The position numbers were made by a program, and so were the translations under genes. Positions 21,981 to 60,800 of a DNA stretch of 61,293 nucleotides are shown here, piece by piece (position 1 is the stretch's first letter; each line of letters begins with the position of its first letter). The notes under the pieces were generated by a model. The model had not been told where the DNA came from, made no database searches, and worked only from the letters and a program-made list of their open reading frames with translations. This DNA is from an uncultured Bacilli bacterium (GTDB lineage: Bacteria > Bacillota_I > Bacilli_A > ML615J-28 > CAG-313), in contig CANQDG010000009.1 of the NCBI GenBank assembly GCA_947591495.1, positions 1-61,293 on the forward strand. The letters are read 5' to 3'.

Positions 21981-22751
21981 CTAAAAATATTTTTTCTTAG
22001 TAAGCATTACTACTTTACCACCCGTAAGTTGAATCATCTTAGCCGCATCAATTGAGAAATCTTGGGCTTTAACAGTAAGTGGTTTATCAAGTGTACCTCT
22101 TGCAAGAACTTTAACAAAGCAAACATTCTTATCAATTAATTTCTTTTCTTTTAAGATATTAACTGTAACAGTTTCACCTGCTTCAAAATTACGTGAAATA
22201 ACATCAAGATTAATAATTGCTTTCTTTGTACCATAAATCTTTTCGGTATTTTCTTCTTTTTCAATTAAAATCTCAGCTGTTTCATCAGATACGATTTCTT
22301 TAACTTCACTTGCACTTACTTCAGCTCTTTGAAGTTCTTCCATTCGTTTTTGTTCAGCAGCCTTTCTTGCAGCTTCTTCTTCAGCGGCTTTTCTTGCAGC
22401 TTCTTCTTCAGCAGCCTTTCTTGCGGCCTCTTCTTCAGCAGCTTTTCTTGCGGCTTCTTCTTCAGCAGCTTTTCTTGCAGCCTCTTCTTCAGCAGCTTTT
22501 CTTGCAGCTTCTTCTTCAGCAGCCTTTCTTGCAGCCTCTTCTTCAGCAGCCTTTCTTGCAGCTTCTTCTTCAGCAGCTTTTCTTGCAGCCTCTTCTTCAG
22601 CAGCTTTTCTTGCAGCTTCTAAATCTTCTTCTTTAGTTTCTTCTTCAAATTCATCTATTTCTTCTTCTGTGAATTCACCAGTTCCTTGTAATTGTCTTTG
22701 TAAGAAAGTATTTGTTTTTGATCTTTCTCTATGTAAAACGATTTTTGCCAT
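21981..22751 (-). CDS. Charged repeat-helix protein with a C-terminal uL15-like domain
   Basis: 256 residues in three parts. Residues 1-45 start [20 protein letters not shown] and turn acidic. Residues 46-134 are ten copies of AARKAAEEE (the last AARKAAEQ), expected to form a long, possibly free-standing charged alpha helix. Residues about 170-250 match the C-terminal half of ribosomal protein uL15: [38 protein letters not shown], then [15 protein letters not shown]. The N-terminal rRNA-threading part of true uL15 is absent and the gene is not in a ribosomal protein operon, so it is unlikely to be the housekeeping uL15. Last gene of the gmk-rpoZ-M32 unit, 18 bases after the carboxypeptidase. 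Function unknown; ribosome or RNA binding is a guess. Confidence 0.75.
22350..22616 (-). repeat. Ten tandem 27-bp coding repeats
   Basis: In-frame tandem repeat of 27 bp encoding AARKAAEEE. Copies differ mainly at third codon positions (GCT/GCC/GCA), which shows selection on the protein rather than very recent duplication. The opposite strand is open in several frames only because of the repeat. Confidence 0.95.
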
Positions 22752-24504: not shown

Positions 24505-25121
24505 TTATTCCTCCATTAATTTATAATATCCTTCAAGGGCCCGATCACATTTTGCATGTTCAGCCCGAATTATAGCAATAATTTTATCAACCGCATTTTC
24601 CACTTCATCATTGATAACGATATAATCATATGATGAGGCAAGCATAATTTCATTACGGGCTTTCGTTAGACGTTCTAAAATGATATCACTAGTTTCCGTT
24701 CCACGATTGATTAATCGATTTTCTAAAGCTTTCCATGATGGAGGTTCAATAAAATAAAAACCGCATCACTCATTTTAGCTTTTACTTGTAAGGCTCCTTG
24801 AACCTCAATTTCTAAGACGACTTCTTTGCCTTTTTCAAGTTTTTCTAAGACTTTATCTTTGGGTGTGCCATAATAATTATTAACAAACTTAGCATGTTCT
24901 AAGAGATTGCCTTTCGCAATTTCATCTTCAAATGCTTCCTTAGAAACGAAATAATAATCTCGACCATCGACTTCTCCTTCACGAGGAGCACGAGTTGTCA
25001 TTGATACTGAAAAATCAAGATTATGACCAGGTCTTTTAAAAAGTGCTTTTCTAATTGTTCCTTTGCCCACTCCTGAAGGTCCAGAAATGACAATTAATAA
25101 TCCTTTTTCATTAAGTTTCAT
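24505..25121 (-). pseudogene. gmk: Guanylate kinase, interrupted by a one-base frameshift
   Basis: Phosphorylates GMP to GDP. The first part, from [21 protein letters not shown] (P-loop) through [24 protein letters not shown] and [20 protein letters not shown], is normal and then runs into a stop at 24723. The rest ([20 protein letters not shown], then the lid and a C-terminus ending YYKLMEE at 24505) is intact in another frame. Adding one T to the T-run at about 24751-24760 restores a standard ~205-residue enzyme. Because gmk is normally essential, a sequencing or assembly error in the homopolymer is the likeliest explanation. The ATG at 25121 has GAGG 8 bases upstream; a TTG at 25133 is part of that ribosome binding region. 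Confidence 0.85.
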
Positions 25122-25154
25122 AGAATACCTCAAAAAACGATATTTATTTAATTC

Positions 25155-33169: not shown

Positions 33170-33209
33170 AAAAACTAACTTCTTCTAATAAAGAGGTTAG
33201 TCTTTTTAT
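33170..33209. terminator. Terminator at the end of the 15-gene operon
   Basis: Stem GACTAACCTCTT / AAGAAGTTAGTT on the minus strand (one mismatch) with a 6-base loop and T-runs on both sides. It closes the long leftward operon that ends with the FAD oxidoreductase. Confidence 0.85.
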
Positions 33210-33237: not shown

Positions 33238-34575
33238 TTAATATTTTGTAATGTGATGATTTTGATGCAAAACATCAACTAATTGTTGATAATCTACTTC
33301 TCTTAAACTTTTGTGCTCACTAGTTGCAAGTGAAGCTAAAGTTCCTGCTACTTCACCTAAAGCCATACAAACTGGACTCACTCTTAAGGAAGCTGCAGCC
33401 TCATGGGTTGCCCCAATAATACGGCCCGTAACAACTAAGTTTTTAAGTCCTTTCGGAAGCAAAGAGCGAAGCGGTATTTCAAAAGCTAAATTGTTTGATG
33501 ATGCTTTTTCATCAACTTCAAGACTTGCCCCATCAGGTGAATGAATATCCATTGGAAAAGCACTAACGCAAATAGCATCACTAAATCTTTGATGGTTATA
33601 CACATCATCTTTAGTTAGCATATATTCACAAACAATGTGGCGACTTTCCCGCACTCCAATTTGATATGGTGTTTGCAGAAGATAACTATTAGCAAAGCCG
33701 GGAATATATTTTTGTAAAAACTTCAAAGTTTTCGTAATTTGTTTACGACCTTCTACTTCAGCCTTAGTTAAATCAATTGGATCTAAAGCTGATTTACCAA
33801 GAACTCTTGTCATATTAACAGTTACTTCATGAGGCTTAACATTTTCAAATAATAAAACGCGGTCACGTTCAATATCAAAATCATGATTAGCTTTGGCAAG
33901 TTGGACTTCCGCAAAAAAGCCACTAATTCCTAAATACTTAAAATCATAATTATCCCTTAACACAAAGTTTTCGGGATTTTTTTGCATTGCTTTTCTTAAG
34001 GCTTCCATATCAACATTACCAACAATAAAAGGCATTGTCATTGGTTGGCATAAGTGATCACTGTCGCGTCCTATTTGATATTGGGCCTTGGCATAAACAG
34101 CTAAATCACCATCACCGGTTGCGTCAATAAAGATTTTAGCTTTAATTTTGGATAAGCCTTTTTTATTAGCAATGGTGATACTTTTAATCATACCATCTTG
34201 AATGGTTGCATCAATGATTTTAGTATGTAAAAGCAAATCTATGTGATTTTCTTCAATTAATTCAAAATATAGTTTTTTTAAAGCCTCCGGATCAATTGGA
34301 GTTACCGTACTACAAAAACCTAATGGATCATCAAGATGACCTAAACTACCTTTTTCTTTAATTAATCGTTCAACAATTTCATTTGCAATCCCACCTATTA
34401 CTTGTTGATCCATATTATGATAAGTCATTAACGGACCAACTAAACTAAGAATATTACTTCCCCCAAGTAAAGCGGTATCTTCAATTAATAAAATTTGAGC
34501 GCCACAGCGTTTAGCACTTAAGGCAGCACAAATACCCGAAGGTCCTGCACCACCAATAACGACATCATAAATCAT
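33238..34575 (-). CDS. FAD-dependent oxidoreductase (FAD_oxidored type)
   Basis: 445 residues from MIYDVVIGGAGPSGICAALSA, a clean dinucleotide-binding motif; the family then shows LLGGSNILSLVGP, KAKIFIDATGDGDLAVYA and the late block VVTGRIIGATHEAAASLRVSP. This family is common in carbohydrate-utilisation clusters, but reactions are known for few members. I start at 34575 because GAGG lies 9 bases before this ATG; a TTG at 34590 is part of that site. Last gene of the operon. An oxidation or reduction of a sugar or its derivative is inferred from context. Confidence 0.8.
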   Translation of the reverse strand: MIYDVVIGGAGPSGICAALSAKRCGAQILLIEDTALLGGSNILSLVGPLMTYHNMDQQVIGGIANEIVERLIKEKGSLGHLDDPLGFCSTVTPIDPEALKKLYFELIEENHIDLLLHTKIIDATIQDGMIKSITIANKKGLSKIKAKIFIDATGDGDLAVYAKAQYQIGRDSDHLCQPMTMPFIVGNVDMEALRKAMQKNPENFVLRDNYDFKYLGISGFFAEVQLAKANHDFDIERDRVLLFENVKPHEVTVNMTRVLGKSALDPIDLTKAEVEGRKQITKTLKFLQKYIPGFANSYLLQTPYQIGVRESRHIVCEYMLTKDDVYNHQRFSDAICVSAFPMDIHSPDGASLEVDEKASSNNLAFEIPLRSLLPKGLKNLVVTGRIIGATHEAAASLRVSPVCMALGEVAGTLASLATSEHKSLREVDYQQLVDVLHQNHHITKY

Positions 34576-34579
34576 ATTT

Positions 34580-36034
34580 TTATTCCTCAACTTTAATTTC
34601 TATTTCAAACATTCTTCGCCATGGAAGGCAAAATTGGTAAGGAGTATAATCAATCATATAATCATACTGATGAATCATTTTAGCAATTTCGGCGGTTGCT
34701 AAAGGGGTTGCATCTTGAAGATTAAAAACGGAACATTTTTGCTCATATAAGATTTTTGATACTTTCCGCCTTACAATGTATTGATAAATGCAATCATCCA
34801 TAATCCGCTCTTTAAGGAAAGCTTGATTAGCAGGTGATTTAGGATTAGCAAGGTATGCCATAGCATTGCAAAGGGCGCTTCCTAAAGCATTAGATGAGGT
34901 ATTCCAAGCAGAATATCCTAATAAATTTCGATAATCGATATCATTTAATAACTCAAAACTACCCCCATTAGGGAAAAATAAATCAACTAACAAAACCGGT
35001 TTTTGTTTAATTAAACCATTGAGTTTTTTTATATAGGCCAAATAAGATTCATCACGATTAATTGGAACTTCAATATACTCATTTAATTCAAGAGAATGAT
35101 TTTGTTCTTCTGCGAAAATAGCTAACACAAATGATGCTTTATCTAAATCATCAACTAGTTTAATGCCAATCGTTTCAAGCATTTTTAAAAGATTTTCGCT
35201 AAAGGGCCGGTCCTCAAAAAGGTGACATTTATCTAAAATTTTAGGCGTTGGGACTAAAAGATAAGCCGTTGGCGCTAAATGATATTCTTCATTGATAATA
35301 CGCGCTAGTAAAACAGCCGCTCCTTCATCAGTTCCATTGTAAAATTCAACTTGATCAGTTAAATGGTCTTTTTCCATTTGTTCTTTGATTTCAACTTGAT
35401 CAATGGCTTGAATACCATAAGGGCTTGAATCTTCTTGTAAGAGAATCATTTTATCTAGCACTTTATCTTTAACTAGGGATAAAAAGTATTTATTTAAAAA
35501 TAGTTTTGTTTTTCTAGCCCTAAGATAAGTTCCTAAAATACGCTCTGGAATGGTTTCTTCTAATTTTTTTAATTTAGCCAAGTCTTCTTCTTGATGGAAA
35601 AAATAATAAGCTCCTTTTAATCTTGCAAATTCATTCATTGCTTGATAATATTGATGACTTTCATCATCAAAGGTTGTGATAGCCGTTCGCATAATGGTAT
35701 CAAAAACATAGATTTTCAAAGCTGGATATTGCTTTTTTAATTCTTTAATTACCTCTAATTGCTTTATAACTTTTTCTAAGTCAATTTGTGCCTTTCTTGC
35801 TTGAATTAATCCCCCATAACAAAGTCCATCAGTGGAAATAATTAAATATTGCATTTGGGCGATGTTTTCTTTAAGCCAAGGCATAATTAAGTCAATATTT
35901 GCACCCGTAAATAAATTGCCACAAGCACTGCGTGGATACATCACAATTTCCATTTTAGCAATCCTTGCCAAGCTTACAATCCAACTGGTGTTACATGGTC
36001 TACTATCAAGCGGTATAAGGCCTACTTTAATCAT
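34580..36034 (-). CDS. DUF4127 family protein
   Basis: 484 residues with no signal peptide. The N-terminal block GLIPLDSRPCNTSWIVSLAR, then LIISTDGLCYGGLIQARK, and the later NGTDEGAAVLLARI and LLGYSAWNTSSNALGSALC are the conserved blocks I associate with DUF4127. As far as I know no activity has been shown for the family. The conserved Asp, Ser, Arg and Asn residues look like an active site. It overlaps the TIM-barrel gene by four bases (ATGA) and the FAD gene follows at once, so the three are probably made in fixed ratio and may act in one pathway. Confidence 0.75.
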   Translation of the reverse strand: MIKVGLIPLDSRPCNTSWIVSLARIAKMEIVMYPRSACGNLFTGANIDLIMPWLKENIAQMQYLIISTDGLCYGGLIQARKAQIDLEKVIKQLEVIKELKKQYPALKIYVFDTIMRTAITTFDDESHQYYQAMNEFARLKGAYYFFHQEEDLAKLKKLEETIPERILGTYLRARKTKLFLNKYFLSLVKDKVLDKMILLQEDSSPYGIQAIDQVEIKEQMEKDHLTDQVEFYNGTDEGAAVLLARIINEEYHLAPTAYLLVPTPKILDKCHLFEDRPFSENLLKMLETIGIKLVDDLDKASFVLAIFAEEQNHSLELNEYIEVPINRDESYLAYIKKLNGLIKQKPVLLVDLFFPNGGSFELLNDIDYRNLLGYSAWNTSSNALGSALCNAMAYLANPKSPANQAFLKERIMDDCIYQYIVRRKVSKILYEQKCSVFNLQDATPLATAEIAKMIHQYDYMIDYTPYQFCLPWRRMFEIEIKVEE

Positions 36035-36720
36035 AAATTATCGATTTCTTTTCTAAAAGCCTTAATGGTTGAGACAATACTTGCTTTTTCTTTTCCCATT
36101 GAAATAGCTCCAACCATAACTGCATTAACTTGGCATTTGGCAAGTAATTTAACATCACTAGGTAAAATAACATGTTGAGTTGGAACAACGGTTGGAATAT
36201 TTACATGGCTTGCAATATATTTATATTTGACTAAATCTTTCGCGTTTAAGCGTTCACCATAAGTTTCGGGTTGACAAATAGATAATTCTAAAATATCAGC
36301 GAAACTTCCTTCGCCTACCGCAACAATTTCATCTAAAGAATAAGTGCTATTGACCGCAAAGAAATTATTAACATCATCTCTTGCAACTAAAGAAGCAGGT
36401 GTATGATGACCATAAAGGGAAATAAAGTCAAAGCCCATTTTAACAATTTCATCTAAATTAGCCTCAGCCTTAAACGCATCTTCACCGGCAACAATGCCAA
36501 CAGGCACTGGTGAATCTTTAATGATTCTTGCAAATACTTCTTTATTGTCTTCTAAACTACCAAAGGTGTTATTGCTAGCACGATGCCAAACATTAATATG
36601 AACTTTAATAGCATCAGCGCCTGCTTCCCAAGCGGCTTTAGCAAACTCGTAATTATTTTCGGGAATGCTTGCAATTAAACACATTTTATTCTTTTTTAAT
36701 TTATCTAATAATCTATTCAT
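36031..36720 (-). CDS. TIM-barrel protein of unknown function
   Basis: 229 residues. Alternating strand-helix pattern with typical barrel features: CLIASIPENN (strand 1), AWEAGADAIKVHINV, VPVGIVAGEDAF, GFDFISLYGHHTPASLVARD, IPTVVPTQHVI and the C-terminal NAVMVGAISMG, which could bind phosphate. It recalls NanE- or ThiG-like barrels but I cannot place it in a named family. It is sandwiched by overlaps between the SGNH esterase (8 bases) and DUF4127 genes, so it likely acts on the same compound. Confidence 0.6.
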   Translation of the reverse strand: MNRLLDKLKKNKMCLIASIPENNYEFAKAAWEAGADAIKVHINVWHRASNNTFGSLEDNKEVFARIIKDSPVPVGIVAGEDAFKAEANLDEIVKMGFDFISLYGHHTPASLVARDDVNNFFAVNSTYSLDEIVAVGEGSFADILELSICQPETYGERLNAKDLVKYKYIASHVNIPTVVPTQHVILPSDVKLLAKCQVNAVMVGAISMGKEKASIVSTIKAFRKEIDNL

Positions 36721-37822
36721 TTTTTATTTCATCTTCCTTTTTCATTATTTTCTTAAATTCCTTTTCTAAATTATTAGCTATTTGTTTAAATCCTAAATCA
36801 TTAGGATGAATACCATCAATGGTATATTCATCATAAGGTGAGCCTAATAGTTTTCTACCATCAATATAATAAAGATGATGGTCAACTTTGCGCAATCTTT
36901 TTACTAAATTTTGTTGGAATAAGCGAATTTCTTCTCTTCTTTTTCCCAGTGTTTCTGGATTTAAATCATCTAATAAATATTTTATTCTTGAAATTACAAT
37001 GATTGGTTTTTGGGAATGATGGTTTCTGATAATTTTAATAAAATCCTCTAATGTTGCTTCTAATTTACCATTAGTTCCCCCATTGGCTTCGTAATCGATT
37101 ACAAACATTGAAGCATCTTCAATAGAGGCCATAATTTTCGCAATAATTGCTTCCCCAAAAGCATTGCCAGAAAAGCCAAAATTAATGATTTCAGCTTTCA
37201 TTGATCTTGACAAAAGATTAGTATAGCATAAACCTGGTCTACTGGCACAACCACCTTGGGTGATAGATGTGCCATAATAAACTATTTTATTATTTTTTGA
37301 TAAATCATCTTCTGGTTTAATTAAATATGCATCTTCATCAATTGCAATCTCGATGTTGTCAACTGTTCCATATAAAGGAAAGTTAATAACAACTAATCGT
37401 TTTTCTTTTTTTAGATTTTTAAACAAAGTGTATTCATATTCTTTTTGATCCACTTTAAAGCGACTAGTATCCCAAAACATAAGGGTATCATAGTCTTGAC
37501 CAATGTAACAATCAAAACCTGCTTGAGCTACATAAGTCATTCCTGAAAGGTGGGCAAAATCTTGAATTTTAGCATGAATAATTAAACATGTTGAATTAGT
37601 AACAAAATGAAGTTGCCCACCTGCTGAATTTTTACTTAAAGCAAGCACATTAGGTGCTACACTTTTTAAGGCGGAGTCTAAATGGCGCGGTAATCTTTGG
37701 TAAAGACCATCCTCTTTTATCCAATTGAAGCCATAAAATTTAACGTCCGCAAGTAAAGGATTGATCCACCTAGTATGATCGATGGTTGAATGAGGTAAAT
37801 CAAAGTTTCTATCTAAATTCAT
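36713..37822 (-). CDS. SGNH/GDSL hydrolase with an N-terminal beta domain
   Basis: 369 residues. Residues about 1-165 look like the beta-sandwich that precedes the hydrolase in the GxDLY/GDSL_3 group (NFPLYGTVDNIEIAI). The catalytic half starts KIVYYGTSITQGGCASRPG with the nucleophile Ser, has GFSGNAFGE and DYEANGG as the oxyanion blocks, and ends DGIHPNDLGF with the Asp-His pair. No signal peptide, so it works in the cytoplasm. Probably removes acetyl or other acyl groups from an imported sugar. Follows the GntR gene by 9 bases. Confidence 0.82.
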   Translation of the reverse strand: MNLDRNFDLPHSTIDHTRWINPLLADVKFYGFNWIKEDGLYQRLPRHLDSALKSVAPNVLALSKNSAGGQLHFVTNSTCLIIHAKIQDFAHLSGMTYVAQAGFDCYIGQDYDTLMFWDTSRFKVDQKEYEYTLFKNLKKEKRLVVINFPLYGTVDNIEIAIDEDAYLIKPEDDLSKNNKIVYYGTSITQGGCASRPGLCYTNLLSRSMKAEIINFGFSGNAFGEAIIAKIMASIEDASMFVIDYEANGGTNGKLEATLEDFIKIIRNHHSQKPIIVISRIKYLLDDLNPETLGKRREEIRLFQQNLVKRLRKVDHHLYYIDGRKLLGSPYDEYTIDGIHPNDLGFKQIANNLEKEFKKIMKKEDEIKNE

Positions 37823-37831
37823 TGTTATCCT

Positions 37832-38560
37832 CTATTTTTTAGAGAAATTATGTTTAAACCTAAAATAAGTGCCAAGGAAGTATTGTCTTTCATACATGAA
37901 AGGAGCACCATTTTCTAAATAGCTAACCGAACTCATATATAAAGCCGCCTCATTAGGTGTGCAATTTAAAATTTCAGCTACTCTTGGCGCAAGTGATCTT
38001 GCTTCAATTGCACATTCACAATTTCTAATAACAAAGCCAAGTTCTTTTTGCACATAAGTATGAATAGAGTTTAAGAAAATATCAGCTGATAGTTCAGGAT
38101 ATAAATTAATTGGTAAATAAATTCTTTCATATACTAACGGAATATTGTTGAGTTTGCGCACTCTTTCAATGAAATAAACTTGATTAGATGATGTAAGTTG
38201 TAATCTTTTCATAATAATTTCATCGGCTTGTTCAACTGAAAAATTAATTACCGTATTAACTAATTTTCCTTTAGCGCCAATCATTTCTCGTGCGAAACTA
38301 AAATAAGGTAACTTGGAATTTTGATCCATTTCAGTTTTATTAAAAATTACAAAAGTTCCTTTTCCTTTATGACGATAAATATAGCCATCAATTAATAAGT
38401 TATCAATTGCATGTCTAACAGTCATTCTTGCCACACCATATTTAGAACAAAGTTCTATTTCGCTAGGAATCATATCACCTTGTTTTAATTTTCCGGTTAA
38501 TATATCTTTTCTTAAATCTCTTTCTATTACTTTATATATTGGTTCTTTATATTCTACCAT
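37832..38560 (-). CDS. GntR-family regulator with a UTRA effector domain (HutC type)
   Basis: 242 residues. The N-terminal winged helix is standard: YKVIERDLRKDILTGKLKQGD, then SEIELCSKYGVARMTVRHAID and the wing GYIYRHKGKGTFV. The UTRA ligand domain covers about 90-238, with VYFIERVRKLNNIPLVYER and a C-terminal PFMYERQYFLGTYFRF. HutC-type members usually respond to a sugar phosphate or other small metabolite. Being the eleventh gene of the operon, it is expected to be autoregulated. Palindromes matching or nearly matching the HutC consensus GTMTAKAC lie at the operon promoter and at the promoter of the 1034-residue lipoprotein. AGGAGG precedes the ATG. Confidence 0.92.
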   Translation of the reverse strand: MVEYKEPIYKVIERDLRKDILTGKLKQGDMIPSEIELCSKYGVARMTVRHAIDNLLIDGYIYRHKGKGTFVIFNKTEMDQNSKLPYFSFAREMIGAKGKLVNTVINFSVEQADEIIMKRLQLTSSNQVYFIERVRKLNNIPLVYERIYLPINLYPELSADIFLNSIHTYVQKELGFVIRNCECAIEARSLAPRVAEILNCTPNEAALYMSSVSYLENGAPFMYERQYFLGTYFRFKHNFSKK

Positions 38561-38569
38561 AACTTCCTC

Positions 38570-40069
38570 CTAGTTATTATTATTAGGGCTTAAACTTACA
38601 ACTTCTCCTCCTAAATTAACATTAACACCTTCATAGGTAACACTATGACAATTAGTAAAGCTTGATGGAGCATTACATGCGGAAAAACGAGTTGCTACCA
38701 TTGGAACTTTATAAAGGGTTCCATTGATATTACGATATAAATAAACTTCTTGCCAAATACAATTAAGGCTTGCCGCATTAGTTTTTTGGGTTGGTTTACC
38801 TTCATTATTAACTTGGTCAAGGGCACATACCCGTTTAAATTCAGCTTTAGCTGTTCCCATTCCTTTGGCCGCAAATTCTTCTGATAAGAAAACTTTGGAA
38901 TAGTTAGAACCTAAATTATAACTTGCACGTTTTTGAACATATTTTTCAATAGTTGTTTCTTTTAATAATTCAACTCTTAATTGCAAGAAATTAGGTCTTG
39001 GGGAAAAGACACTGATTCTTACGGTATCACCAGGATAGTAGTAATAACAGGTATCTTTCCAATTTGAATTAGCATAATTGTTTCTGCCTCCATCGATATA
39101 ACGCCAAAATGGTCTAAAAGCAACAGATTGTGAATAATCAACAGCGGTGCAATTAGCATCTTGGGCGCCAAATGACCAACTTAAGCCGGTATCACATTCA
39201 GCTGAACTATTGCCACCAAGATAAACCGACGGATTATCTAAATAGCGATAAGTATTAGCAGCATAAGGATTATCGTCTTTTCTTTTTTCATCAGGAATAA
39301 ATTCTGGAAGGGTAACAACCACTTCAATTCCTAACCAATAATCACGACTTGATACACATTTACGATAAACGGCCCCAGGAAATTCTGATTGTCTGCCGGG
39401 AGCAATTTCTCCTACAATTTGATCTTGGTAAACACTTGCTTGATGCCAAGTGGCACTTGGTGACAGATTAGGATCTTGTAAAACGGTTATGGAAAAGCTT
39501 TTTTCTAAAAAACTTGTACCTAAACTAAGATGGGCTGTCAAAGTTACGACAGTATCACTTGCTGGCAAAGTTAGTTTACCGGTTGCATCAATAATATCTG
39601 GATGAGAAGAAAACCAAACAATATTAACAACCTTCCCATCGGCTTCTTTTGATGTTGTTAAACTAAGTGATGCATCAATTGTTTGAGGTAAGATTAAACT
39701 ATCTGCTACCTTTTGTAAAGTTTTCATACTAGTATCTCCTAAGATTGTAATAATATATCTTTTTTTCAAGGTTTCACCATTTAAACTAGCTGTGCCAATT
39801 AAGATTATTGTTTGATCAGTTTCAAGTCTTGTGATTACCCCTTGATTATTTAGGGCTCTTTCGTTATTTGATTCCCAAACCACTTCGATGGTTTTACCTT
39901 CAAATTCATAAGAACTAGCTAGATTAAGGTTACTCTCAACCGTTGTTGAAATATTTAATTGGTCAAAAAATCTTTCAAGAATCTTGGCATTACTTGAGGC
40001 GCATCCTCCGATGAAAAAAAGCATCAACAAACATAAAGGTAACATTAAGGTTTTACGCAGTTTAAGCAT
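38570..40069 (-). CDS. Lipoprotein with two atrophied Ig-like domains
   Basis: 499 residues from MLKLRKTLM; the signal peptide ends at the lipobox FIGGC. Two aBig_2-like domains follow, about 25-105 (IEVVWESNNERALNNQGVIT) and 110-195 (VNIVWFSSHPDIIDATGKLT). The remaining 300 residues are rich in Tyr, Asn and Trp, all beta in appearance, and unknown to me; they contain several Cys (DANCTAVDYS, SLNCIWQEVY). The ATG at 40069 lies within the last codons of the upstream binding-protein gene, behind AGGTGAAG. It is probably an extracellular glycan-binding or capture protein working with the transporter; that role is inferred from position. Confidence 0.65.
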   Translation of the reverse strand: MLKLRKTLMLPLCLLMLFFIGGCASSNAKILERFFDQLNISTTVESNLNLASSYEFEGKTIEVVWESNNERALNNQGVITRLETDQTIILIGTASLNGETLKKRYIITILGDTSMKTLQKVADSLILPQTIDASLSLTTSKEADGKVVNIVWFSSHPDIIDATGKLTLPASDTVVTLTAHLSLGTSFLEKSFSITVLQDPNLSPSATWHQASVYQDQIVGEIAPGRQSEFPGAVYRKCVSSRDYWLGIEVVVTLPEFIPDEKRKDDNPYAANTYRYLDNPSVYLGGNSSAECDTGLSWSFGAQDANCTAVDYSQSVAFRPFWRYIDGGRNNYANSNWKDTCYYYYPGDTVRISVFSPRPNFLQLRVELLKETTIEKYVQKRASYNLGSNYSKVFLSEEFAAKGMGTAKAEFKRVCALDQVNNEGKPTQKTNAASLNCIWQEVYLYRNINGTLYKVPMVATRFSACNAPSSFTNCHSVTYEGVNVNLGGEVVSLSPNNNN

Positions 40070-41567
40070 AATAATCTTCACCTAAATTATACATCATTTT
40101 GAAAGAATTTTCAACTAAAGATTTAACCGTCGCCATCGTGCTCCTAATATCAGCACTTTCACCTTTGACGGCTGATTGAATATATAACATATAAGAGCCT
40201 TCGGTTTGCGCTTTAGCTTGGTCAAGGCTATAGAAGTAATCAGGATAACCTTTTTGAATAATTGAACGATGAGCCTCGATTGATGATTCATTACCATAAT
40301 AAGGAATGATACGGTTATTAATATATTCATCAATATATTCATCTAATGCACAATAACCAGTTGTTTCATCAATATCGGTAAATACTTGTAATTCTGACCA
40401 AATTTTAAAGATAATTTCATCATATAAAGTTGAATTTTCATAGCCTGGTTTAATATTTGATTTAGCATATGAAGAAGAAATGACAAATTGGGTTTTACCA
40501 TATACATCATTAATATAATAATCAGTTAAATTAGTTGTATCTTTAACATTTGGACCGACAGGATATGGCACAAAACCAATATCAAAGTTTTTATGAAGCC
40601 ATTTGTTTTCTTGATAAATCCAATAAGATTGACCATTATGGAAAGCAACTTTACCTTTAACCATTTCGGTTGAGGTAGCATTATCTAAAGCACAAGAATC
40701 AATATCCCAACTAACGGTTTTTTGTAAACGATTCAAATATGTAAGGGTATCAATAGCAGCTTGACTATCTAATTGACATTTTAAATCCATATCAACAATA
40801 TGAACACCATTAGCACCTAGTAATTGATAAGCCCAGTTATAAGCAGTTCCACCCATAACATAATAATCAGATGGTAATACTTGATCTAATTGGTTACATA
40901 AAGCTTCATATTTATCCCAAGTCCATTCACCTTTTAACCAAAGGTCACTTGGTAAATCTTCATTTGGTAAATATTTTTTAAACAAATCAATATTATAGAA
41001 AATTCCTTCATCAGCGGTTGGATAAATATCTTGATATGCATATACTTCACCTAAAGCTGTTCCATAATTTTTAGCTTCTGGCCAATATCCTTTATTACCA
41101 TAAGCCTCAATAAAGGTTGTGATAGGCGTAATAGCATTAGCTACCGCAAGCGTTCCAATTGAATAAGATGGAACTTCATAAATATGAGCTTGTGGGGTTC
41201 CCGCAACGCTATTTTCAATAATATATCGTTCACGTGCACCACCCCATGAAGCACTAGATGGATAAGGAACATATTGAACTTTTATATTATATTTCTTTTC
41301 AACTGCCTCAATGGCTTTAACTTTTTCCGCTTGGAAAAGTCTTGTATAATCGGCATTTCGTGGATCAGAAGTTGATACCGTATCAACCATAATTTTAAAT
41401 GGTGCACCCATAAAATCATAAGTTGGTTCGGTTGGATCACCACTTGGGTTTGGATTAGGATTTGGATTAGGATTTGGTTTTGGTTTATCCTTTTTACATC
41501 CACTCATACAAACAACTAAAACAAGGCTTAAAATAACACCTAAAATTTTACAAATTTTTGTTTTCAT
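40062..41567 (-). CDS. Extracellular solute-binding lipoprotein, carbohydrate ABC type
   Basis: 501 residues. Signal peptide ending VVCMSGC (lipobox), then a Pro-Asn repeat linker (KPNPNPNPNPNPSGDP) that keeps the domain off the membrane. The body has the bacterial SBP family 1 layout: GIFYNIDLFKKYLPNEDLPS and WLKGEWTWDKYEALCNQL, then MGGTAYNWAYQLLGANG and MVKGKVAFHNGQSYWIYQ. It should pass a sugar or oligosaccharide to the two permeases encoded just upstream. This is the second solute-binding protein of the operon. Confidence 0.85.
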   Translation of the reverse strand: MKTKICKILGVILSLVLVVCMSGCKKDKPKPNPNPNPNPNPSGDPTEPTYDFMGAPFKIMVDTVSTSDPRNADYTRLFQAEKVKAIEAVEKKYNIKVQYVPYPSSASWGGARERYIIENSVAGTPQAHIYEVPSYSIGTLAVANAITPITTFIEAYGNKGYWPEAKNYGTALGEVYAYQDIYPTADEGIFYNIDLFKKYLPNEDLPSDLWLKGEWTWDKYEALCNQLDQVLPSDYYVMGGTAYNWAYQLLGANGVHIVDMDLKCQLDSQAAIDTLTYLNRLQKTVSWDIDSCALDNATSTEMVKGKVAFHNGQSYWIYQENKWLHKNFDIGFVPYPVGPNVKDTTNLTDYYINDVYGKTQFVISSSYAKSNIKPGYENSTLYDEIIFKIWSELQVFTDIDETTGYCALDEYIDEYINNRIIPYYGNESSIEAHRSIIQKGYPDYFYSLDQAKAQTEGSYMLYIQSAVKGESADIRSTMATVKSLVENSFKMMYNLGEDYYA

Positions 41568-41588: not shown

Positions 41589-42581
41589 TTATCCAACAAT
41601 ACCTGATCTTTCAATTCCTTCAACAAATAATTTTTGTACAAAGAAATACATAATAAGAACCGGTAACATAACTAAAATACCTGCCGTATTTAAAATCATC
41701 GAAACAAAGAGGGGATTACTAGTAACATCTTGACCCATCAATTGCCAAATATTGGCTTGCATTAAAGCTGATTGTAATGATGAACCAGTCGAAATGGTTT
41801 GTAACTGGGTCGTTAATGTAACAATATCAGGATTGCCCCCAATATAGAATAAATTAGTATAATAGTAATCATTCCATTGCCAAACAAAAGCTAACAATAA
41901 AACCGTAATAATGGTGCTTTTTACACAAGGAAACATTACTTTAGCAAATACTTGAAAGACATTACAGCCATCCATATAAGCAGCTTCTTCTAATTCTTTT
42001 GGTAAACCTTTAAATCCTTGTCTAAATAAATAGACAAAAATACCAGATTTAATTCCCATTCCTAAAGCTGCCATTAAGAATAAAACATACTTTTTACCAA
42101 GGAGGCCGGTTCTAGCAAAATTAATATACATTGGTAAACTAACCATAGTTTGAGGAACAATAATCGTAAACAAACTGAAGAAAAAGAGTAGTTTACTTCC
42201 TTTAAACTTTAATCTAGCAAACGCATATCCAGCTAGTGCTGTTGATAACACTTGTAAAATGGCAACCCCTAAAGAATTAAAGAAGGTGGTGCCAAGAGCT
42301 TTCCAATAATTTAAAGCGGTAATGGCTATTTTAAAGTTTTGTAAGGAAAATTGTTCGGGAATCCACATGACCTTTGGATTATTAACATCAGTTGGTAATC
42401 TAAAGGCTACTGCGATTTGTAAGATTAGCGGATAAACAATAATAAAAGAAATACCAATCATAAAACTATATTTAATGATCGTTACAATAATGTTTAATAA
42501 TTTAGAACCAACGACTTTGCGTTTTTTTGGATTTGTCAAAGTATCTTTTAAGTTACTTGTTAATTTAACCATTTTATTCAT
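41589..42581 (-). CDS. ABC sugar permease, MalG type
   Basis: 330 residues with six membrane segments. The inner-membrane-complex motif that contacts the ATPase, EEAAYMDGCNVFQVFAKVMFP, is at about residues 217-237. Carbohydrate-uptake subfamily CUT1 by layout. Overlaps the paired MalF-type gene by 8 bases and precedes its binding protein by 21. The nucleotide-binding partner is not encoded in the window. Confidence 0.9.
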   Translation of the reverse strand: MNKMVKLTSNLKDTLTNPKKRKVVGSKLLNIIVTIIKYSFMIGISFIIVYPLILQIAVAFRLPTDVNNPKVMWIPEQFSLQNFKIAITALNYWKALGTTFFNSLGVAILQVLSTALAGYAFARLKFKGSKLLFFFSLFTIIVPQTMVSLPMYINFARTGLLGKKYVLFLMAALGMGIKSGIFVYLFRQGFKGLPKELEEAAYMDGCNVFQVFAKVMFPCVKSTIITVLLLAFVWQWNDYYYTNLFYIGGNPDIVTLTTQLQTISTGSSLQSALMQANIWQLMGQDVTSNPLFVSMILNTAGILVMLPVLIMYFFVQKLFVEGIERSGIVG

Positions 42582-44019
42582 TATTGTTCACCGCCTTTCT
42601 TAAAAATAGATATAAAATTCCAATAATAAGGAAATTAACAATAAAGTAAATAATAGCGATTGCCGAAGACATACCATATGGAATTTTTGATCCAGTGGAA
42701 TCAACTGTCATAATTCTGATTAATTCGCTTGAAGCAAAATTATCAACAATGGTATAAATTAAAACCGGCAAAAACATTCGTGATGTCATAGGAACAGTTA
42801 TTTTACAGAAACAATCATATGTTGTTGCACCTTCAATTTTCGCTGCTTCATATAAATGTTTCGGAATAGATTGGAGGGCCGCAATAAAAATCAAAATTTG
42901 AATACCAGATTTGGTAACAATCGTGAAAATACGATCAACGGCTGCTATTAAAAATTCAATTAAACGATCCCCAATACCTAAGTCTAATAGAAAATTTTGA
43001 ATACCAACTGACATTTGAGAAAAGCCAGTCATTGTTGTATCCATCGTTGAACCAAAAGAACCATTTAAAGCTAAGCTAATAACCGTTGTATTATAAATAA
43101 CCGGAATAAAGAAAATCATTTTAAAGAATTGATGACCTTTAAATTTCGTATTTAAAACCACAGCTACTAGTAAACTAAAAATGAAAATAATCGGAACATT
43201 AATAATCATTTCTAAAACAGAACTTGTTAAAACTTCTAAAAAGGTTTTAGTTCCTAACATTTGGGTTTTAAACAAATCAAAATAGTTTTTAAAACCAAGC
43301 CATTTAATTGTTAATCCGCCTGCCACACTTTGAACATCATTAAAACTCCAATAAATCGTAGTTAAAAGCGGAATGGCAAAAAATAACGCAAATCCAATTA
43401 GCCATGGAAGCACAAATAGATATCCACCTAAGGCTTCTTGTTTTCTAAAACTCATTGAGTTTAATTTTTTAATTGTTCGCATGAGGAAATTAAGTTTAAC
43501 ATATGTTCCATCTTCAAGTCTAATAAGGTCTATTTTAAGAGCTTGCATTTTGGTTTTAATTTTTAATTCTTGACGTTCTAATCTATTTAATTTCTTTAAG
43601 TTCGGATGCTTTTGTGTTTTGGTTTTTTGTCCAAATTCAACATATTTTTTTTCAACCATTGCTAGTTTAACTTCCCATTGGTTTAAGCGCTTTTCATATT
43701 TTTCAACTAATATTTGCTTTTCTTCTTCAATTAAATTAGATGGTTTATTTAAATTAAACTTTTGGCTAAAACGTTTGAAGAAGTTTTCTTTAACATAAGA
43801 ATCATTAGCTAATTGTTCAAGCGTTGTTAAAACATCTCTAATTTGATAAAGAATTTTAATTTTTTGTTTTTGTAAATGTCTAAATTTAGCTGTCTGTTTG
43901 CTAATTATAGCCAGTGCTTCTTCTTTTTCGTTTAAACGCTTTTCTAATTTAGTAAGTTTATGATTTAATTGCTCTTGAAGTTTGTTTTTAGCATCTTTTG
44001 TTAAATTTTTCTTGGCCAT
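42574..44019 (-). CDS. ABC sugar permease, MalF type, with a long cytoplasmic coiled-coil extension
   Basis: 481 residues. Residues 1-190 are highly charged and helical, with no membrane segment, and contain two similar segments (LTTLEQLANDSYVKENFFKR near 67-86 and LIRLEDGTYVKLNFLMRT near 165-182). A regular six-helix permease follows from GGYLFVLPWLIGFALFFAIP, with the ATPase-contact motif YEAAKIEGATTYDCFCKITVP. CUT1 permeases normally have a short N-terminus; an extension this long is unusual. The ATG follows the DUF5696 stop directly, and its ribosome binding site lies in the last codons of that gene. Confidence 0.88.
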   Translation of the reverse strand: MAKKNLTKDAKNKLQEQLNHKLTKLEKRLNEKEEALAIISKQTAKFRHLQKQKIKILYQIRDVLTTLEQLANDSYVKENFFKRFSQKFNLNKPSNLIEEEKQILVEKYEKRLNQWEVKLAMVEKKYVEFGQKTKTQKHPNLKKLNRLERQELKIKTKMQALKIDLIRLEDGTYVKLNFLMRTIKKLNSMSFRKQEALGGYLFVLPWLIGFALFFAIPLLTTIYWSFNDVQSVAGGLTIKWLGFKNYFDLFKTQMLGTKTFLEVLTSSVLEMIINVPIIFIFSLLVAVVLNTKFKGHQFFKMIFFIPVIYNTTVISLALNGSFGSTMDTTMTGFSQMSVGIQNFLLDLGIGDRLIEFLIAAVDRIFTIVTKSGIQILIFIAALQSIPKHLYEAAKIEGATTYDCFCKITVPMTSRMFLPVLIYTIVDNFASSELIRIMTVDSTGSKIPYGMSSAIAIIYFIVNFLIIGILYLFLRKAVNNNE

Positions 44020-46674
44020 CTAATTTCCCCCCTTTACTACTTGATAATTATTAGGGGCAATTAAAATGCCATTATAAAGATAATCAACTGGACTATAATT
44101 TAAAACAATTTCAACGCCATTACTATAAGTTGTTTTAACAACTGTTGCTTCGGCATTTAGATATTGATGGTTTATCAAATAAGCACTATAGATATTTAAG
44201 GCATTTAATTCTTGATAAACATCTAAAGATGCTTGATACCAATTATCATAATAAGTTGAATATAAATAGTTATATTCGGTATCAACTAAATCAGTAGTTC
44301 TTTCATATGTCCACGTCATAGCGATATTGGAAAGAGTTTCGATTGCTTTCATCTTATGATAAGCAAATGAATATTCATCATTCATATTAAATGATTCAGC
44401 CGAATAATCTAAATAGCCACTTAAAACGAGTTGATAAAATGGCACAGAAGTTTGAAAAATCGTATAATCGGTTGCCTCAGTTGGAACATCAATTGCTATA
44501 GTTGCATATTTTAAAGCATAATCGTTAGGTGCCGTAAAAGCCATTCTATAATTTTGATAGTTTTGCATGATTTCTTGGAATAAAGTTAATGTTTGATTTT
44601 TAAAAATCATATCAGTTGATTGATAACTACCATATAAAATATTACCAATATCAGAAAAGGCCATATTTTGAATTTTTAATTTATTTAATACTTTATCAAT
44701 GCTTTTTAGGGTCTTTTTATAGGTTGTTGGCTTTAAAGTATAAAGCGGAGTTGTTTGTAAATCTTGTTGATATAATGCTTCATTGTTTTGATAATTAACA
44801 ATTGTTTTACCATATTGATTCGTAATGAGTTTTTTATTACTAATATGTTTATCCGTATATATATTAGCGATATTAAACATTGGATAAAAGTTAATGGTGT
44901 TTTCCGCTAAATGATTTTGCAAGATTTGTAATTTTTTCTTAGTCGTAATGGCTTTATTAAATTTGATTTTACCATTATATGTGGTATTAATACCATTATT
45001 CATAAAGCCTTGATAAATAATATTTAACTCTTTAATGCCATCTTGTTTAAGGCCTAAAGCAAGTGTTTCAACATTATCAGAAGTTGTTAAAGCTTGCACT
45101 TTTTGATAATTAATACCTAAGAAATTACGTTTTTCTAAATAACCACCAAGTAAAGTTAAATTGAAAACTACTTCTTTAGTATCATCTTTATTAGTAAGAA
45201 CGCCTTGTTCAATTAAATATTTTTGATATTGTTTAGCCATTCCCACATAAGTTACATCATCAGCCAAACTTTCAATTAACATTGTAACTGATTGATCATT
45301 AGCATCATTTGTCCATGTTTGAATATCATCAAGTCCCGCAAGCGATTCAAATTTATAAGTATCGGTTTCGCGATAATAATAACGATAAAAGATTTGGTTG
45401 TATCCATTTTGGTTACCTTCACTATTTATTCTAGCAACAATGGATGAATTAGGACTACCTGATTCTAAAATATTAATCATTCCTTTAGTTAGATTATCAT
45501 CTTCAATCATCATTCCATAAACGCTTAAAGCAATTTTAGTTTTATCAAAATTAAAGGTATTTTTACTAGTTGCAAGATCATCACCATATAATCGCTGTTC
45601 ATAATTGGTTGCATATTGACGATTGTTATTAAAATCAACAATGGCACCACTACCATCAGGAATAAGAGCATAACCTTTGCCATCCGCATTAACAGCCGAA
45701 AAATAAGGTAAAATATCAATATAAATTAAAGGGTAATCTTCATAATCTTTGATTGATTCATTAATTAATTCAACTTTTAAGTTTTCTTCTTCTAAACTAT
45801 AACGCATTGATACCTCAAAGGTTGGATAAGTTTTACTAGGTTCAATGCCATTTTCTAAATTATCAGCCGTTAAATCATCAGTTGTATAACCACAAACTTC
45901 ATAGAAAAGTTTATATAAGCCTTCAATAACCATTGGGGTTAAAGCATTGGGATTATTAAGGGCATAATAACCATAACTTGTATTAAGGCGATATTGTCTA
46001 AGATACACAAGATAACGATTATAAGTGCTATAATTTGGATCATTTATTTCTTTTAAATGCGCAACATAAGCCTCAGCCCTATTTTGAATTAAAGTTTCAA
46101 AACGTTCTTGGGAAATTAAGCGTGGTAGATCGGTATAATCAATTCGCACTTTACCACCTAAATAATATAAGACTTCAATGCTATTAGGCGTTTTTCTAAG
46201 CGCATAGCGGTGCATGTCTTCATAATTGATGGAGTATTGATAGTTACCATACTCAAAAGGTTCGCCCCGACTTTCTTCATACCAAATAGTTAAGGTATCA
46301 ATTTCACTTCTTGGTGTTGGGTTAGAAGCAAAATTTTGACCAGTTAGTTTATCAGTTAAAACAAAATGGGTCGTGCTTGGATCTAAAGTAAAGATGTAGC
46401 GTTCATTTTCGATAATTATGGGGTTTGTTTTTTCTTCTTCGGTTAAGTTATCATAATCAACAAAATTGGTTTTATCATAAGCTGCTTTAACTGGAAAACT
46501 TTTTTTACCAGTAACAACGATTAAAACAATCGCCCCAACCATAATTAATACTAAGAGAAAAATTCCTAGTTTCACAAAAGGAAATTTAAAGTTTTCCTTT
46601 TTCTTTTTGAAATAGTTTTTGATATTAATAAACCATTTTTTATAAAAGGGGAGTGTAAAATAATTATCTTCCAT
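44020..46674 (-). CDS. DUF5696-family membrane-anchored protein
   Basis: 884 residues. A basic N-terminus is followed by one membrane segment (about 34-56), then a large extracellular part. The block GYALIPDGSGAIVDFNN is the landmark by which I recognise DUF5696, a family found next to carbohydrate ABC transporters in Paenibacillus and relatives. The C-terminal half (about 490-800) looks like a TIM-barrel-type glycosidase fold (NVETLALGLKQDGIKELNII, MAFSDIGNILYGS), which would make it a candidate glycan-processing enzyme, but I see no diagnostic catalytic motif. Lies between Yip1 and a MalF-type permease. Confidence 0.75.
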   Translation of the reverse strand: MEDNYFTLPFYKKWFINIKNYFKKKKENFKFPFVKLGIFLLVLIMVGAIVLIVVTGKKSFPVKAAYDKTNFVDYDNLTEEEKTNPIIIENERYIFTLDPSTTHFVLTDKLTGQNFASNPTPRSEIDTLTIWYEESRGEPFEYGNYQYSINYEDMHRYALRKTPNSIEVLYYLGGKVRIDYTDLPRLISQERFETLIQNRAEAYVAHLKEINDPNYSTYNRYLVYLRQYRLNTSYGYYALNNPNALTPMVIEGLYKLFYEVCGYTTDDLTADNLENGIEPSKTYPTFEVSMRYSLEEENLKVELINESIKDYEDYPLIYIDILPYFSAVNADGKGYALIPDGSGAIVDFNNNRQYATNYEQRLYGDDLATSKNTFNFDKTKIALSVYGMMIEDDNLTKGMINILESGSPNSSIVARINSEGNQNGYNQIFYRYYYRETDTYKFESLAGLDDIQTWTNDANDQSVTMLIESLADDVTYVGMAKQYQKYLIEQGVLTNKDDTKEVVFNLTLLGGYLEKRNFLGINYQKVQALTTSDNVETLALGLKQDGIKELNIIYQGFMNNGINTTYNGKIKFNKAITTKKKLQILQNHLAENTINFYPMFNIANIYTDKHISNKKLITNQYGKTIVNYQNNEALYQQDLQTTPLYTLKPTTYKKTLKSIDKVLNKLKIQNMAFSDIGNILYGSYQSTDMIFKNQTLTLFQEIMQNYQNYRMAFTAPNDYALKYATIAIDVPTEATDYTIFQTSVPFYQLVLSGYLDYSAESFNMNDEYSFAYHKMKAIETLSNIAMTWTYERTTDLVDTEYNYLYSTYYDNWYQASLDVYQELNALNIYSAYLINHQYLNAEATVVKTTYSNGVEIVLNYSPVDYLYNGILIAPNNYQVVKGGN

Positions 46675-57897: not shown

Positions 57898-60800
57898 TTA
57901 TTCAGTTTCCTTATTCCAAGTATCACCATTAAATACATAAGTGCCAGCTTCTAAAGCTATTTCACCACTTGATGAAACAAGTGAAGAAGAAACACTAATT
58001 GTTAATGAATTTGAACGATCTTTTTCAATAGAATCGATTTTCAAAGTTGCACCAGACTCAACTATAACTTTGCCAGTAGTTGAACCTTCTGTAGCACCAA
58101 TGGCTGCCGCAATCTTACCATTACTTGAAACATAAATCGTTCCATCATTTACTAGCGTAGCCGCAGCATACTTACCATAAGGCACACCTCCTGTAGTTGA
58201 ATTATCATTAAATTCTTTATAGAATATTAATTCACCACCTTGATTGATATTTAAAGTAGCACCTTCTTCAATTGTAAGACCTGAACCTGTTAAGAATTTA
58301 AATTTGTTAACTAAATCTAAATTACATCCCTTTTTAAGAATCATATTTACATTATGATTAATTGGGAAAAATAATTTTTCAGTTGTAATAGAAATAGAAG
58401 TCATAGCTGCAACTGTTAATTTTAATGTTCCATATGAAGTTGTAGCATTTCCATATATTTCCATTTGACTTTTTCCATTAACAAATGATCTTGTAACATA
58501 TGCATCAGAATCTTTTAAAATTAGCATTGCATCTTCTGTTCCTACTAATCCTAAATCAGCATCATTAACTTGAGGATTGAACGTGAAAAATGCAATAGTT
58601 TTCTTTGTCGTTGTTATTCTTGCATGGCCAACAAGTCTTGCGCCATAATGAATTTCAATTGTAGGTTCAATACTTCTAACCTCATAATCATTAAATGGGA
58701 AAACCGATTGATATACATCTTTAGCATTGCTTCCTCCACGCCAGCCTGTTATGACAAGCATATCTCTAACAATACCACCATTGGCAATAATTTTACCATT
58801 TCCTTTGATTTCACCATATGATTCAACTGTTCCGGTAGAAATAATAGTACCATCTAAAATTAATCTACTATAGCCACCAGAAATCATATTTTGCGGATTA
58901 CCACCACTATTAAACAATCCTCTTATAGCACCAACGGTTAAAGTGCTATTATCAGAAACATTTAAGATGATTCCTGTAGGAATAGTTAAAGTTAAATAAA
59001 GTTGTGGATTAACACTACCACTACCAGATACTGGCATATCACCACTATCTTCACCATTACCTGTATGACCAACTTTATCGCCTTCTTTATAAGGTAATAA
59101 TAAATTACCATTTAAAGTATAAGTATTGGCTGGTGCTAATGATTCGTCACAAAGATCTGCATCAACAAATTTAGTACTAGCAAGTAAAATAATTTGTTCT
59201 CCTGATTTTGCTTGACAAATAGCTTCTTCAATAGTTCGATATTTTATAGCATTAATTTCTGCTACATAATCTGCATCCATTGTAATCGTTAGTGTTGAAT
59301 TGTTTGTAAAATAGTTAGGATCAGTTATTGTAGCTGTTGCTAGATATTCACCATAATATAAGAATTTAACAATATCACCTTTATTAACAAAGCCACCATT
59401 TTTTGTCAAAGTAATTGCTACAGATATTTCATTACCTAAAACATCAGTATAACTTACTTGAATTGCATCTGTTTGATCTTCAGCGTTATATTTAACATCA
59501 TAACCTTGCCAATTAAGCGTTACTTCTTTAGCGTTAATTTTAACTTCAACTTGATCACTTGTTACTTCTTTAGTCAATTTACCATCACTAACAGTAACAA
59601 CACAATAATAAACACCGCTATCAACTACATTAGTAAGAGTTAATGTATTATTTGAAGATGATAAAACTAATTCTTTGTTTTGTGGATTGCCTTTATACCA
59701 TGTATAACTTATTAGTTCGCTTAATGGATAATTTACGGATACTTTTAATTGATGTCCATTACCATCATAAGTTATTTCGCCAAAGCCTTTAATTTCTTCT
59801 ATTGTAAATTCTTCTAATTCATATATAGCAATAAATTCTAAATCAGCTTTTACTTCAACATTAGTTGGATCAACTTTTGTATCACTTTGAGTCTTATATG
59901 CCCAGCCAACAAATACAAAACCTGTTTTGGTTGGAGCCTCAACTGCACCTACTTTTTCTAAGTATTTAACGCCTTTAGTTAAAATTGCACCCTCTTTAAA
60001 ATTACCACCATTTGCATCAAAAGTTATGGTATATGTATGTATTTCCCAATGCGCTTCTAAGGTAATCGGACCTATTATAACTATTTTTTCAAAATCAAAT
60101 GGTTGTCCATCTAAGAACCAGGCAGTAAGATCATAGCCTTCAAGCGTAGGATTTTTTTCTAACTCTGGAATTAATTCTTCATATTTAACTTCTTTTGTTG
60201 TTGTGTTTTCACCATTTTCAAAACGGCCACTTCCCGCATCAAAAGTAATAGTAAATACATGCTTTTCCCAATGTGCTTCTAAGGTAATATCTTTTGTAAC
60301 AGGAGTTTCTTTAAAATTAAATATTTCTCCATCTAAGAACCAGTCAACAAAGTCATGACCTTTACGGGTAGGGGCTTCTTCTAGTTCTGGAACTAAATCT
60401 TCATATTTAACCTTTTTTGTTACCTTATTTTCACCATTTTCAAAGCTACCACTTCCCGCATCAAAGGTAATAGTATATATATGCTTTTCCCAATGTGCCT
60501 CTAAGGTAATATCACTTGTAACAGGGGTTTCTTCAAAATTAAATACTTCTCCATCTAATAGCCAGCCAGTAAGATCGTATCCTTCACGGGTAGGAGCTTT
60601 TTCTAACTGTGAAATTAATTCTTCATACTTAACTCCTTTTGTAGATGTATTTTTACCATCTTCAAAACTACCACTTCCCGCATCAAAAGTAATTGTATAT
60701 ATATGCTTTTCCCAATGCGCTTCTAAATCTAAATTCTTTTCTACTGGTTGATCAAATTGATATGCTTCTCCATCTAAGAGCCATTCAACAAAGTCATATC

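Follow-up and report, generated by a model that had tools for sequence, protein, structure and literature searches.

Layout of the locus

The window, i.e., the whole 61,293-nucleotide stretch of DNA analysed here, corresponds to contig C9 in a genome of 48 contigs totalling 1.51 Mb. The host is an Anaeroplasma-like gut bacterium, placed in one genus with a MAG that carries the label Anaeroplasma bactoclasticum; the TIM-barrel proteins of the two are 79% identical. Four genes on the reverse strand encode, in the order of transcription, a GxDLY/SGNH-type esterase (GDSL_3; 36713..37822; PF14607 and PF14606), a TIM-barrel protein of an unnamed family (36031..36720), a DUF4127 protein (PF13552; 34580..36034), and an FAD_oxidored (PF12831) flavoenzyme (33238..34590, with a likely ATG start at 34575). 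The esterase and TIM genes overlap by 8 bp and the TIM and DUF4127 genes by 4 bp (ATGA). The DUF4127/FAD junction depends on the start codon of the FAD gene: a TTG start gives an 11 bp overlap, whereas the ATG at 34575, preceded by GAGGAA, leaves a gap of 4 bp. A terminator-like inverted repeat, flanked by runs of T on either strand and read in the sequence at about 33174..33201, stands between the FAD gene and purB. The four genes thus close a long operon, and the coordinates, the Pfam matches and the repeat all agree with the original prediction, which had placed four overlapping or nearly touching enzyme genes (8, 4 and a few bases) at an operon end.

Family membership was clear for three of the four products. 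The DUF4127 protein scored 392.7 bits against a cut-off of 27, with the match running over its full length (residues 5-480), and the flavoenzyme scored 400.6 bits, above the cut-off, with G14 and G19 of the glycine-rich dinucleotide site and E37 downstream of it invariant. The esterase scored 144.4 bits for PF14606, and its sequence carries the Ser in GTS, the Gly/Asn in NFGFSGN and the Asp-His in DGIH; its relative in the PDB, 4lhs, is uncharacterised.

The rest of the operon, also on the reverse strand, begins immediately upstream of the esterase with a GntR/UTRA regulator (37832..38560; PF00392 and PF07702), followed by an aBig_2 lipoprotein whose C-terminal part belongs to no named family (38570..40081; PF20578), an ABC transporter solute-binding lipoprotein (SBP) that is the probable substrate importer (40062..41567; PF01547), a permease (41589..42581; PF00528), a second permease with an N-terminal extension (42574..44019; a weak PF00528 match), and a membrane-anchored DUF5696 protein, a conserved upstream gene (44020..46674; PF18952, 450.7 bits). 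Upstream of DUF5696 lie genes for Yip1 and NHL/TPR proteins, two further permeases and an SBP that includes a CBM35-like part. A PDB sequence search with the SBP retrieved nothing. Among the related loci described below, the regulator is also kept in L038-L041, L072 and L093, and DUF5696 in L038-L040.

Several features of the window are recorded here as separate observations. DUF5696 has an N-terminal membrane span and a weak C-terminal match to the 3,6-anhydro-D-galactosidase 5opq (E 0.006), and to judge from its sequence it is possibly a surface glycoside hydrolase. The unnamed C-terminal part of the aBig_2 lipoprotein is common to proteins of about 320 and 450 aa encoded beside DUF4127; such relatives occur near DUF4127 in 15 of 38 loci (including L048, L049, L054, L057 and L061), with two per locus in several genomes, and the short form has no Pfam name. 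Elsewhere in the window, a guanylate-kinase-like ORF (24723-25133) ends early, at 136 aa against the usual 200 aa or so, possibly through a frameshift or an assembly error; a 256-aa protein (21981-22751) carries a long AARKAAEEE tandem repeat; and a very large surface protein (57898-61293) with many TFDAGSGSFENGE/AHWEKH-type repeats is cut by the window end.

A conserved unit of three genes

The TIM-barrel protein matches no Pfam or NCBIfam name above cut-off. Its family was found at 14 loci: the window, six loci from the window organism's family and order (L038-L043), L044 in genome G345, L072 and L075-L078 from a named genome collection, and L093. DUF4127 is present at all 14. The two genes are directly joined in 12 of these, ten of the 12 having the identical 4-bp overlap, and in 11 of the 14 the FAD enzyme follows DUF4127 at -44 to +17 bp. 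Junctions like those of the window recur at 10 other loci. L042 and L043 are rearranged, with DUF4127 still a few kb from the TIM gene and the FAD enzyme retained in L043. An orthologous FAD enzyme is encoded at 12 of the 14 loci, and these 12 enzymes form one group in a quick tree (SH-aLRT 87). As for the remaining two, the FAD enzyme is absent from the fetched stretch of L042, and the only one in L076 is distantly related (25% identity) and lies 2.7 kb off.

The linkage also holds at the level of whole genomes. In a sample of 392 genomes from the phylum, the TIM gene occurs in three, all within the 21 that have DUF4127 (1.3e-4, for genomes that are related and not independent); among 40 relatives it occurs in six, all within the eight that have DUF4127 (hypergeometric 7e-6, again for non-independent genomes). 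No TIM gene without DUF4127 was found among the sampled genomes. For the flavoenzyme, the 28 genomes with DUF4127 encode 31 full-length FAD_oxidored proteins (defined as scoring over 250 bits), 22 of which lie within 10 kb of DUF4127. The original prediction had named separate occurrence of the four families in most genomes as an outcome that would count against it, and this outcome is not what the sampled genomes show.

In a tree of 43 DUF4127 sequences, all 14 TIM-linked members fall on one side of a single branch with support of 100/99. The branch grouping them is present in 100% of bootstrap trees, and shuffled labels would need 12 changes. The TIM tree has the same main split as the DUF4127 tree. 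This clade spans Anaeroplasma-like bacteria, Acholeplasma, Erysipelothrix, G345 and a Roseburia-labelled genome, and its loci hold importers of at least three kinds. Some genomes, among them G206, G345, G403, G481, G499 and G501, carry extra DUF4127 copies that have a higher Pfam score and are not next to a TIM gene, and those of G206 and G345, the ones in the tree, fall in the other clade. The TIM-linked DUF4127 is therefore one co-inherited subfamily, regardless of the surrounding transporter.

Compact low-GC genomes often contain overlapping genes, so that the four genes might in principle be functionally unlinked and the arrangement ordinary operon packing in a small genome. We consider this extremely improbable: the same order and junctions recur across several families in differing surroundings, the TIM gene was never found without DUF4127, and the single-clade DUF4127 tree contradicts it. 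Because of that single clade and the similar junctions at 10 other loci, the tight coupling of the genes, which had been read as a sign of consecutive steps, is not due to chance.

The coupling does not extend to the esterase. It is encoded at only seven of the 14 TIM loci (the window, L038-L041, L072 and L093) and is not found at the Acholeplasma, Erysipelothrix, G345 or Roseburia-labelled TIM loci. The conserved unit is therefore the three genes TIM-DUF4127-FAD, and the earlier grouping of all four enzymes as one unit does not hold; the esterase is an accessory. Loci of the other DUF4127 clade repeatedly hold esterases of different types (GDSL, alpha/beta hydrolase, acetylxylan esterase). 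Since esterases of various types recur near DUF4127, the substrate would often carry some ester or lactone.

Predicted structures of the TIM-barrel and DUF4127 proteins

The predicted structure of the TIM protein (pLDDT 93.7) and its Foldseek matches confirm the TIM-barrel assignment, the nearest folds being phosphate-binding-type barrels (TrpA, KDPG aldolase, ribulose-phosphate epimerase and ThiE). Six residues (K39, H41, Y103, E145, S147 and Q182) are invariant across 13 aligned members, and all map to barrel strands or their ends. Lys39, looked at as a possible Schiff-base lysine, is on strand 2 of the model. A PDB sequence search with the family profile returned nothing, and the window protein stays below the DeoC/LacD cut-off (17.7 against 23.8 bits). 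Kinship with orotidine decarboxylase was rejected, the match being short with an E of 0.1.

Could the TIM protein instead be a disguised NanE-type 2-epimerase, standing in for the NanE found in operons of the sister DUF4127 clade? The two profiles match over 185 columns (P 1.5e-5, probability 80%), and the structural matches of the TIM protein belong to a related barrel superfamily. However, Lys86 and Glu200 of A2, which are invariant in NanE and which we take to be its catalytic residues, align with positions that are neither Lys nor Glu in the TIM family. The window protein gives no NanE hit at all; three of 13 members do (best E 0.026), against 12 of 13 that match DeoC weakly. Furthermore, L041 and L042 encode the TIM protein and NanE together. 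We rejected a role as NanE replacement, which is very unlikely on this evidence, and with the NanE-invariant Lys and Glu missing, the TIM protein should not be named an epimerase.

The DUF4127 model, built from an alignment of 38 sequences, is highly confident (pLDDT 94.9, pTM 0.95), yet Foldseek found no PDB match reaching E 0.001, and whole-chain TM values of the listed matches were 0.13-0.23 of the query. The best match (E 0.002) was dismissed at a TM of 0.18. Only a small flavodoxin-like part aligns well, with a response-regulator-like receiver domain (3jte), and a PDB sequence search with the DUF4127 profile yielded nothing. Twenty-four residues are invariant, six Arg and six acidic residues among them; they include D10, R12, R80, R116, R174, Q200, D202, D236, E274, D351, Y374, W377, N378, N382, D414, R422, W472 and R474. 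In the model, D10/R12, R116, Q200/D202, D236, D351 and Y374/W377/N378 are at or just past strand ends, the usual place of the active site in alpha/beta enzymes, which makes this region the candidate active site. The Arg and acidic residues would suit an anionic ligand and the aromatic residues a sugar. Between the TIM-linked clade and the other clade the core is retained, with switches at nearby positions (P78/Q, D201/E, P233/N, A235/T and Y130/W). As far as an alignment can tell, this fits the same DUF4127 chemistry acting on a different substrate in each clade.

Gene neighbourhoods and the likely substrate

DUF4127 is present in about 5% of the phylum sample (21 of 392 genomes) and in Deinococcota as well. 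A search of viral contigs found no DUF4127, and another gave only two phage-labelled faecal fragments. Separately, a BFVD entry listed as viral, A0A346TNQ6 (693 aa), can be superposed on the DUF4127 model along almost all of its length (TM 0.85, 26% identity). Our literature search, which mostly did not reach subscription journals, returned no paper naming DUF4127, PF13552 or DUF5696.

We counted neighbours in the 7.5 kb around DUF4127 at 38 loci, with labels from locally built profiles. FAD_oxidored proteins occur at 20 loci, NanE at 16, RpiR-type regulators 13 (some of these hits being SIS-domain proteins), ROK proteins six, GHL10, HAD and PTS proteins five each, and GH84 and GH20 three each. 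The 28 DUF4127 genomes contain 23 full-length NanE genes, 15 of them no more than 10 kb from DUF4127. For NanE and FAD_oxidored alike, fewer than one would be expected by chance, a rough estimate that assumes genomes of 1.9 Mb with about 1.4 DUF4127 loci each. NagA adjoins DUF4127 in G375 and G117, with an NagB-like isomerase too in G375, and L072 runs on into SIS and N-acylglucosamine 2-epimerase (AGE epimerase) genes. In a Deinococcus plasmid record, from a different phylum, NagZ, an SBP, GH20 and permeases accompany an FAD enzyme overlapping DUF4127 by 4 bp. DUF4127 genes without amino-sugar neighbours are a minority (L063-L066, L080 and L090). Two further plasmid records carry a DUF4127-NanE-PTS-MurR-type set, one from Priestia (L079: ROK, acetylxylan esterase, DUF4127, ROK, ManA, PTS, NanE, MurR) and one from Carnobacterium (L081: NanE, HAD, DUF4127, PTS, MurR), so the amino-sugar version may spread horizontally.

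Because relatives of this DUF4127 adjoin NanE, NagA/NagB, ROK, MurR-like regulators, hexosaminidases and GHL10, the imported compound is most likely a modified amino sugar, probably an acidic or phosphorylated one. The acetylated sugars and sugar lactones proposed earlier were too broadly drawn, the context indicating amino sugars specifically. The TIM-linked clade is mostly without NanE, which is near it only in L041 and L042; for this clade the argument therefore leans on the sister clade and on L041, L042, L072 and L093.

At the Erysipelothrix and G345 loci the trio has no sugar genes beside it; its neighbours there encode hydantoinase A, an HExxH protein and a transporter resembling antiporters. 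These genes (the transporter being NhaC-like) are directly upstream of the trio, and similar ones, read from the sequence only, precede TIM-DUF4127 in L076. The substrate could accordingly be an amide- or lactam-containing small acid, with the sugar context belonging only to the other DUF4127 clade. We find this unlikely, since the other TIM loci hold sugar-type ABC transporters, the SGNH esterase, SIS, AGE epimerase, NanE and GH84, and the DUF4127 active-site core is the same in both clades. As an observation in its own right, at L044, L076, L077 and L078 a conserved set of antiporter-like transporter, hydantoinase A and HExxH-like protein (190-215 aa, with no Pfam match) replaces the ABC system before TIM-DUF4127, and it may supply the same route through a second means of import and processing.

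A narrower reading takes the substrate to be specifically muramic or anhydro-muramic acid from peptidoglycan, with the module serving in place of the MurQ etherase route or alongside it. GHL10 adjoins DUF4127, as do NagZ, GH84 and GH20, and Cwp19, whose catalytic domain is GHL10, has demonstrated lytic transglycosylase activity on peptidoglycan (PMC6016235). MurR-type regulators are near DUF4127, MurQ is about 5 kb from it in G225, and the Arg-rich invariant residues suit a carboxylate or phosphate. Nevertheless, MurQ scores above its curated cut-off in 16 of 25 DUF4127 genomes, including that of the window (C12:5061-5927), which disfavours DUF4127 as a plain MurQ substitute; GHL10 is perhaps not single-substrate, and GH20 and GH84 fit mucin or chitin equally well. 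A muramic substrate is on balance rather unlikely, and we retain the broader amino-sugar reading.

Proposed route

We give about an even chance to the proposal that the trio catalyses successive steps, in the cytoplasm, of a single route that breaks down an imported amino sugar, probably anionic, often O-acylated and plausibly derived from the cell wall. For the substrate, the reaction types and the order of steps, we infer the following scheme. The ABC transporter would import a modified amino sugar (phosphorylated or carboxylated), and the SGNH esterase, where encoded, would strip O-acyl groups. DUF4127 would then perform the defining step on the sugar in its new-fold active site, with a redox step by the FAD flavoenzyme before or after it, and the TIM barrel would act on a phosphorylated intermediate in the manner of an aldolase or isomerase. 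The product would be a central intermediate that could feed the NagA step of the genome, whose NagA is encoded on contig C5.

A bolder version is that DUF4127 is a new-fold enzyme class that, with the flavoenzyme, opens or cleaves anionic amino sugars by an undescribed oxidation-dependent route, e.g., by taking the lactyl group off muramic sugars independently of MurQ, and that the TIM-linked clade is a second substrate branch. We hold this to be distinctly unlikely. The amino-sugar route proposed above, if correct, would fill a gap in the use of cell-wall or mucin amino sugars by gut and rumen bacteria. The steady neighbours of DUF4127 (NanE, hexosaminidases and the flavoenzyme) point to a concrete substrate class, and the TIM-linked clade defines a three-enzyme set small enough to reconstitute.

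Comparison with known systems

The individual enzymes resemble known ones in part. The TIM protein shares with the DeoC/LacD aldolases and with phosphate-binding barrels such as KDPG aldolase and ribulose-phosphate epimerase the fold and, at the ends of strands, a buried Lys and Glu; in contrast, it falls below the DeoC cut-off, is no more than about 19% identical to any of the PDB matches listed, and has its invariant Lys on strand 2, not strand 6. The oxidoreductase resembles the FAD-binding N-terminal part of the fumarate reductase/flavocytochrome c superfamily, but only about the first 150 residues match, and it has no haem domain.

At the level of the operon, the likeness to MurNAc recycling (MurQ/MurR/NagZ) consists of the MurR-like regulators, NagZ and GHL10 near DUF4127 in other genomes. 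The window operon, however, has no MurQ, the genome's MurQ being on another contig, and to our knowledge the known recycling route includes neither an FAD enzyme nor a new-fold enzyme. NanE-type operons (ManNAc-6P epimerase, ROK kinase, RpiR regulator and NagA/NagB) house the sister-clade DUF4127 and, like the window, combine an importer, a regulator and soluble enzymes, whereas the window operon lacks NanE, the kinase, NagA and NagB and has instead the unnamed TIM protein, DUF4127 and the FAD enzyme. The module thus resembles in its working a portion of an amino-sugar catabolic operon, yet has none of the enzymes that define the known ones, and it probably represents an undescribed route.
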